64,000 nucleotides of DNA from Apiotrichum sp. Y4204 (Eukaryota; Basidiomycota; Tremellomycetes; Trichosporonales; Trichosporonaceae). The translations under genes were made by a program, and so were the position numbers. Below the pieces are notes generated by a model that was not told the origin of the DNA, searched no databases, and saw nothing but the letters and a program-made list of their open reading frames with translations. Positions 62,859 to 63,579 of this stretch are shown here, one piece after another (the stretch's first letter is position 1; every line of letters starts with the position of its first letter). The DNA lies in contig JAMYHL010000001.1 of NCBI GenBank assembly GCA_025531455.1, forward strand, positions 620,001 through 684,000, read 5' to 3'.

Positions 62859-63579
62859 ATGGCAGCAGTGACCAACATCAACGAGTTCGACCCCGAGACG
62901 GCGGGCAACAACGAGGAGATTGAGATGCAATTGTGAGTCGCCAACGGCCGTGGTAACGCAGGACGGAATGATATGGATGAGAGCTGACATTGTAGTGGTG
63001 AGTGCGCGTCTCGTAACGGCTACGACGCCGAGGCTCGAGCTCGGGATCGGAATTCGAACTCCTCTCGACTGGAGCCAGAGCTGCTAGAGCGCCAGATCGC
63101 CAAGCCCGCCGTTAGCCCGGACATCACTGACCCCCAGCCGTCAAGACGGTGGAGCACCTCGAGGCGTACGAGAAGCTCATCACCTCGATCCCCCCGCGCA
63201 AGATCCGTCTCACCCCGTGAGCACCCTCGACTCTCCTATTCCTAACATCAGGATCGACGACGACATCTACGAGGACCTGATGACGCATTTCCCAGAGTAC
63301 AAGTTTGAGGAGCCGCTGCGCCTCCTCGACGAGGAGAGCATGAAGTCTCCCGAGGGCAAGAACCGGTGGCGCAAGTTTATCATGGGCTACGAAAAGAGCC
63401 TTGCCGACTACAACTTTGGCACGCTCATCCGCCGCGACGCGCACCTCCCTTACTCGGAGGACAATACGATTCTCGTCACGCGCGCGCAGTTTGTCGCGCT
63501 CGAGGTAGCGCGCAACCGGACCGGCATCAACGACTACATCTACGAGCAGGCGCAGAAGGCCAAGGCGGGCAAGGCCTAG
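62859..63579 (+). CDS. PBDC1: PBDC1/YPL225W-like ribosome-associated eEF1A chaperone
   Basis: Join of 62859-62932, 62996-62997, 63138-63216 and 63252-63579; 483 nt, 160 aa, the usual family size. The protein reads EEIEMQ-F-AVKTVEHLEAYEKLI across the junctions, then TPIDDDIYEDLMTHFPEY, NRWRKFIMGYEKSLADYNFG, TLIRRDAHLPYSEDNTI and QFVALEVARNRTGINDYIYE. These are the motifs of yeast YPL225W and human PBDC1, dedicated chaperones for newly made eEF1A. Keeping the conserved Phe-Ala and the frame needs a 2-nt exon (TG) between CTGACATTGTAG and GTGAGTGCG. The next-best path adds four residues at an otherwise gap-free site. The other introns are 63, 140 and 35 nt. Confidence 0.85.

Follow-up and report, generated by a model that had tools for sequence, protein, structure and literature searches.

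Can two nucleotides lying between two introns form a complete coding exon in a fungal gene? This question is raised by the dinucleotide TG at positions 62996-62997 of the window, which is the whole stretch of 64,000 nucleotides of Apiotrichum sp. Y4204 DNA that was analysed. A preliminary description of the locus had proposed that this dinucleotide is an exon of a PBDC1 gene. We consider a real, constitutive 2-nt coding exon to be the best explanation of the evidence as a whole, with a probability of roughly 0.9.

Identity and structure of the PBDC1 gene

The gene is the last one of the window and lies on the + strand. Its predicted product has 160 amino acids. Residues 21-149 matched positions 1-125 of the 126-position PF04669 profile with 171.1 bits (E 1.2e-50), against a curated cut-off of 28.5 bits. 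The yeast YPL225W structure (2jyn) was aligned with an E-value of 2.7e-44, and IEMQFAV of the product fell on IEKQFAV of the yeast protein without a gap over the exon junction. These two results bear out the name PBDC1 given in the preliminary description, and the yeast residues that it had given for the site are those of the alignment. Judged by its sequence matches, the gene is PBDC1/Chp1 (PF04669). The best named protein matches were from Kwoniella and Saitozyma. In yeast, Chp1/Ypl225w is a ribosome-bound chaperone for nascent eEF1A.

All bases on which the 2-nt exon had been proposed were found in place. Exon 1 (62859..62932, + strand, as are all features below) was placed by frame and family match and extends from the ATG to ...GAGATGCAATT, that is MAAVTNINEFDPETAGNNEEIEMQ followed by TT; its 3' end is ATGCAATT. 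Intron 1 (62933..62995, 63 nt) has the donor GTGAGT at 62933, a branch-site-like CTGAC at 62984-62988 and a TAG acceptor, which belongs to the sequence CTGACATTGTAG with 62995 as its last base. The putative exon 2 (62996..62997) consists of TG and would complete the codons TT/T and G/CC for F25 and A26. Intron 2 (62998..63137, 140 nt) has again the donor GTGAGT at 62998, a branch-site-like CTGAC at 63127-63131 and a CAG acceptor (CCCCCAG to 63137). In the spliced reading, exon 3 (63138..63216) starts with CCGTCAAG and consists of CC and VKTVEHLEAYEKLITSIPPRKIRLTP, and exon 4 (63252..63579) runs to the stop codon TAG. Between them lies intron 3 (63217..63251, GTGAGC ... CTAACATCAG), which is 35 nt long in the window and 34 nt in the second copy of the gene. 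The spliced reading across TG is EIEMQFAVKTVE, giving EIEMQ-F-A-VKTVE, and the predicted mRNA of the window copy contains the junction ...GAGATGCAATT+TG+CCGTCAAGACG. A weaker alternative donor, GTAACG (63013..63018), would extend the exon to 17 nt (62996-63012). This donor was judged to be unused in the main transcript, for the reasons given below.

Requirement for the TG exon

Each of the flanking introns carries, as sequence motifs, its own GT donor, branch-site-like motif and AG acceptor. Joining exon 1 directly to exon 3 by a GT-AG junction was rejected as a model; it produces a frameshift, as had been claimed before, with a stop after 69 residues, and the product with TG skipped scored 17.9 bits. 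With intron 1 retained, a stop follows directly after MQL, at 25 residues. These two outcomes would give the inclusion rate of TG control over Chp1 output if TG were included in only part of the transcripts, the frameshifting skip lowering that output. However, no regulatory hint was found in the sequence and the donor GTGAGT is present in both flanking introns, so that partial inclusion is unlikely.

The family was examined with 57 PBDC1 homologues, 40 of which were aligned, the 17 others being short, partial or not looked at closely. The two residues encoded across the TG exon were FA in 37 and WA in 3 of the 40 aligned homologues, and query residues 19-34 were aligned free of gaps. The inclusion of TG thus fits the family without a gap in 40/40 sequences, in agreement with the preliminary description, and no other model recovered the frame together with the F-A pair. 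Three of the unaligned homologues (P0037, P0055 and P0057) likewise read QFAVKTVE.

We then scored splice models in which the start codon and exons 3 and 4 were fixed, with either one intron (GT-AG, GC-AG or AT-AC) or two introns (GT/GC-AG) between them and the reading frame kept. Each distinct product was scored on a profile of the 40 homologues, with the query left out. The product with the TG exon ranked first in both copies of the gene: it had the highest score of the 802 distinct in-frame products of the window copy (252.3 bits) and of the 839 of the second copy (252.2 bits). A single canonical intron gave at most 226.7 bits (AT-AC) in the window copy and 218.6 bits (GC-AG) in the second. 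A different 2-nt exon, the CT of 63081-63082 followed by a GC donor (63083), scored 249.6 bits in the window copy and was rejected; the site is missing from the second copy.

When a single intron was allowed to start and end on any bases close to the two outer sites, 81 further products were obtained. The top one, reading MQLAV, would be made by one intron whose ends are non-canonical (TG...CA or GT...CC) and would need no tiny exon at all. It scored 248.6 bits, only 3.7 below the best, and L is chemically close to F. Nevertheless, such ends are outside GT-AG, GC-AG and AT-AC, and L was found at this site in 0/40 aligned homologues. A single intron would also leave the inner CTGAC-TAG-TG-GTGAGT block unexplained, and the same inner design was seen in two other genes. 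We regard this intron as highly improbable. A spliced TTTGCCGTC would be incompatible with it.

The 17-nt exon, made of the acceptor at 62995 and the donor GTAACG at 63013, also keeps the frame. It had been mentioned in the preliminary description as an insertion of four residues. The exon is present in the sequence as described, but the net addition is five residues, F-GECASP taking the place of F-A. Its product scored 238.8 bits, against 252.3 bits for the 2-nt exon, and the five extra residues would lie in a helix that binds eEF1A in yeast, at a site that is gap-free in 40/40 aligned homologues. In RNA this exon would be marked by TGGTGAGTGCGCGTCTC.

A second copy of the gene

The genome assembly comprises 48.9 Mb in 182 contigs. 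A second PBDC1 copy was found on contig 129, with its last exon 99% identical to that of the window copy. Intron 1 is 54 nt and intron 2 is 131 nt in the second copy, and a 9-nt gap was seen in each relative to the window copy. The signals were equal in both copies at donor 1 (6/6), in the block from CTGAC to the acceptor (12/12), at TG (2/2) and at donor 2 (6/6), and the final acceptor block, CTGAC included, was equal at 12/13 positions. The remaining ungapped intron sequence showed 80% identity. The predicted junction of the second copy is ...GATGCAGTT+TG+CCGTC, and for both copies it can be written as ...GATGCA[A/G]TT-TG-CCGTCAAG.

An error of 2 nt in the assembly or the reads, hiding one ordinary GT-AG intron, would formally restore the frame. 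It had been named in the preliminary description as a way in which the exon could be refuted. Since the second copy, on a different contig, keeps TG and its signals though both introns have changed in length, a shared error of this kind is not credible, and we give it practically no weight.

At a background of 80%, the chance that 20 inner signal positions are conserved is 0.80^20 = 0.013. The two copies are closely related and hence not fully independent, and the conservation of these positions is only modest evidence. It also cannot tell the 2-nt exon from the 17-nt exon, because a run of 47 nt (62974-63020) that is identical in both copies extends 17 nt past the intron 2 donor and covers the donor GTAACG. 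This run is longer than the splice sites alone would require.

All three genes examined here (PBDC1, homocitrate synthase and an M50B-type peptidase) are present in two copies on separate contigs. According to PMC12820176, published haploid assemblies of Trichosporonales measure between 17.22 and 33.70 Mb, and the order includes known hybrids. Because the present assembly exceeds this range and such hybrids occur, the genome is probably hybrid or diploid.

Splice-site strength and chance occurrence

The strength of donors was estimated by counting hexamers in 264 kb of the genome, window included, that were followed 20-75 nt downstream by a branch/acceptor motif. GTGAGT was followed by the motif in 39/240 cases, 7.5-fold over baseline, and ranked 1 of 256 hexamers. 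GTAACG was followed by it in 1/46 cases (1.0-fold), showing no excess. The lack of enrichment of GTAACG argues, together with the lower score and the extra residues, against the 17-nt exon, which we consider very unlikely. The donors of the two other genes described below were weaker by this count, with 2.3-fold for GTGCGT of homocitrate synthase and, apart from GTGAGT, 2.0-fold for GTGGGT, 1.7-fold for GTACGT and 0.3-fold for GTACGC in the M50B gene. The hexamer count took the place of a list of introns predicted de novo in the window, which had 111 candidates, was based on a scoring that favours GTRAGT and was too noisy.

To estimate how often the 2-nt design arises by chance, the intron interior was put through 20,000 dinucleotide shuffles. 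One shuffle of the window copy and none of the second copy contained the strict pattern (CTRAC-N2-9-YAG-NN-GTGAGT), and a looser 2-nt pattern appeared in 18 and 13, respectively. Any exon of at most 30 nt that had strong signals and repaired the frame was found in 11 shuffles of the window copy and 14 of the second copy. In homocitrate synthase shuffles, the count of frame-restoring strong-site exons of up to 30 nt was 5; the inner donor of that gene is GTGCGT, which places it outside the strict motif.

Genome-wide, the 2-nt composite motif was not enriched relative to a backward-read control in any of four versions of the scan (13 versus 13, 2 versus 11, 12 versus 13 and 3 versus 21). The motif alone therefore proves nothing and each case was judged by frame and family; for PBDC1, the case was built on the frame, on the fit to the family and on the gene's second copy. 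All 30 hits of the four scans were read by eye, and 5 of them were located in three genes (PBDC1, 2; M50B, 2; homocitrate synthase, 1). The other hits include ordinary exon sequence and, as two hits, a possible exon of 7 nt. A scan for a 1-nt exon motif gave 23 hits versus 19 in the control; among the 4/23 inspected, one was an ordinary exon start and none was convincing.

The possible 7-nt exon, GAAAGCT, is located near the start of a gene on contigs 100 and 107, with MAPPADATSVLDAQ-KA-APAELKAVAEFL as product. This gene may be Sec62-like.

Predicted tiny exons in other genes of the genome

Exons of 2 nt appear to be present also in at least two other genes of the same genome, those of homocitrate synthase and an M50B peptidase. 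In homocitrate synthase on contig 35, exons of 174, 50, 2 and 31 nt precede a long exon, and the 2-nt exon is TG at 1513-1514 of the excised locus. TT/TG/ACC would be read as GEQFASAW-F-D-LETKIKIA, which was aligned without a gap to the Schizosaccharomyces pombe enzyme (3ivs) and shares F-D with it. Among the 120 homologues listed of 3458, the junction stretch was of equal length in 120/120, of which 119 were scored by pattern and one by reading. P0178, whose reading frame lies on a public contig of 1638 nt, has identical residues at the junction. The best named protein matches were from Apiotrichum and Cutaneotrichosporon. A second copy on contig 167 keeps TG, with the branch site CTAAC versus CTGAC, and its intron b is set apart by an indel of 1 nt. 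As the length of intron b differs by one base, this stretch cannot be in-frame coding sequence in both copies. The predicted junction is ...GCGTCGGCCTGGTT+TG+ACCTTGAGACC.

The M50B-type peptidase gene (PF13398) was found on contig 94 near 732524 and on contig 139 near 473479, and was modelled up to residue 168. In both copies the predicted exons are 142, 2, 2, 5, 41, 72 and 111 nt in length, and the tiny ones, TT, TG and GCACG, are consecutive. All seven introns are of the form GT...CTRAY...AG and measure 33-64 nt. TT/TG/GCACG plus flanking bases would encode L-W-H-V, and the predicted junction is ...CATCGCTATCC+TT+TG+GCACG+TTCCCTATCTC. Without all three tiny exons the frame is kept and W-H-V is lost, so that frame alone does not decide in this gene. 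The Pfam score was 120.3 bits with and 117.2 bits without the tiny exons. The W is present in 113 of the 120 homologues listed among 660 found. Exactly W-H-V is missing in 6/120 (P0063, P0078, P0083, P0087, P0088 and P0129), namely four Kwoniella, one Cryptotrichosporon and one Cryptococcus protein, all from Tremellomycetes. These six sequences probably reflect annotation that skipped shared small exons. If so, tiny exons may reveal one way in which conserved genes come to be misannotated.

Proposed splicing mechanism

The recognition of short introns in fungi is commonly attributed to intron definition. For this reason, the view that the exon challenges exon-definition models was overstated; a tiny exon fits the intron definition of short introns. 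Since each of the PBDC1 introns is short and contains a donor, a branch-site motif and an acceptor of its own, recognition across the intron is possible. Splice sites would be paired across each short intron, and no exon-spanning complex would be needed.

Only 2 nt separate the intron 1 acceptor from the intron 2 donor, and the two could hardly be occupied together. This spacing implies that the introns would be removed one after the other and not simultaneously, and successive removal of PBDC1 introns 1 and 2 is likely. If intron 1 is removed first, TG would be fused to exon 1 (...CAATTTG/GTGAGT) and intron 2 would then be excised. We lean towards this as the usual order, though it is a guess. 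Only the product of both steps would be functional, because skipping of TG shifts the frame and retention of intron 1 leads to a stop.

The exact size of the exon is most likely maintained by pressure at the protein level. The N-terminal helix of yeast Chp1 binds nascent eEF1A, with cross-links to eEF1A at Q18 and V21, and F19 was among the residues changed together in binding tests, according to PMC10869706. By the numbering taken from the 2jyn alignment, the F-A pair lies between Q18 and V21, within the eEF1A-binding helix.

Comparison with known ultra-small exons

The PBDC1 exon, as predicted from its sequence, belongs to a known, very rare class of ultra-small exons. The closest fungal case is described in PMC12940212, published in 2026, where a 1-nt exon of CYP621A in Fusarium is supported by 18 RNA reads. 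Both cases concern a fungal nuclear gene and an ultra-small exon that lies in a conserved protein motif and was missed by gene models, and for both the inference drew on the reading frame, the protein family and the conservation of the sites. The Fusarium exon is 1 nt long, belongs to one gene family of Ascomycota and has RNA reads, whereas the exons described here are 2 nt long and are predicted from the sequence in three genes of a basidiomycete. The same paper mentions exons of 2-5 bp in Arabidopsis, Drosophila and humans. In the basidiomycete Phanerochaete chrysosporium, P450 genes are described as having microexons and often small introns, the shortest exon there being 6 bp (PMC1184071), compared with 2 nt here. 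Considering the 1-nt and 6-bp cases, the statement that exons of such size are rarely reported in fungi was fair. Among the open-licence PMC papers listed in our searches, none reported a fungal exon of 2 nt. A microexon of Xlr2 in Trichoderma virens is described as glucose-regulated (PMC11121469), whereas no hint of regulation was found here.

In plants, 1-nt exons are described in APC11 (PMC4674806) and VPS55 (PMC8831610). These are likewise ultra-small and unannotated, and the GTRAGT donors are conserved in VPS55. Successive intron removal is discussed for the Arabidopsis APC11 exon (PMC4674806). The intron stretch in APC11 is 422 nt, whereas the introns here are 33-140 nt, with consecutive 2-2-5 nt exons in addition. 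Recursive splicing resembles the proposed mechanism in its stepwise removal and closely spaced acceptor and donor. However, in the accounts cited (PMC6224609, PMC13149111) it mostly concerns very long introns or RS-exons, while here the introns are short and the coding exon must stay.

The more unusual part is the predicted 2-2-5 nt run and the recurrence within one genome. The PBDC1 exon offers a clear test case for the minimal size of an exon when short introns are recognised singly. If true, the three genes with 2-nt exons make the statement that intron definition has no lower exon limit testable with existing RNA-seq. In a broader form, which we would give an even chance, exons down to 2 nt would be an ordinary outcome of dense intron gain in this basidiomycete-yeast lineage. 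They would occur in many genes and include 2-2-5 runs, gene models would be wrong at such sites across Trichosporonales and other Tremellomycetes, and splicing would proceed by pure intron definition with no lower limit of exon size.

Origin of the flanking introns

The proteins P0055, P0057 and P0007 of relatives read straight through the F-A site. P0057 leaves the family after HLE, as would be expected of an intron at another site, and the contig of P0007 is 64 kb long. Because these proteins read through the site, the simplest reading is that this lineage acquired the introns on both sides of TG. The 2-nt exon may have originated when one intron was inserted at a distance of 2 nt from another, within a pair of codons intolerant of change.

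P0055 ends exactly at the position of intron 3 of the window copy. Intron 3 (63217-63251) may have a counterpart in that relative, since the protein stops there as if at an intron.
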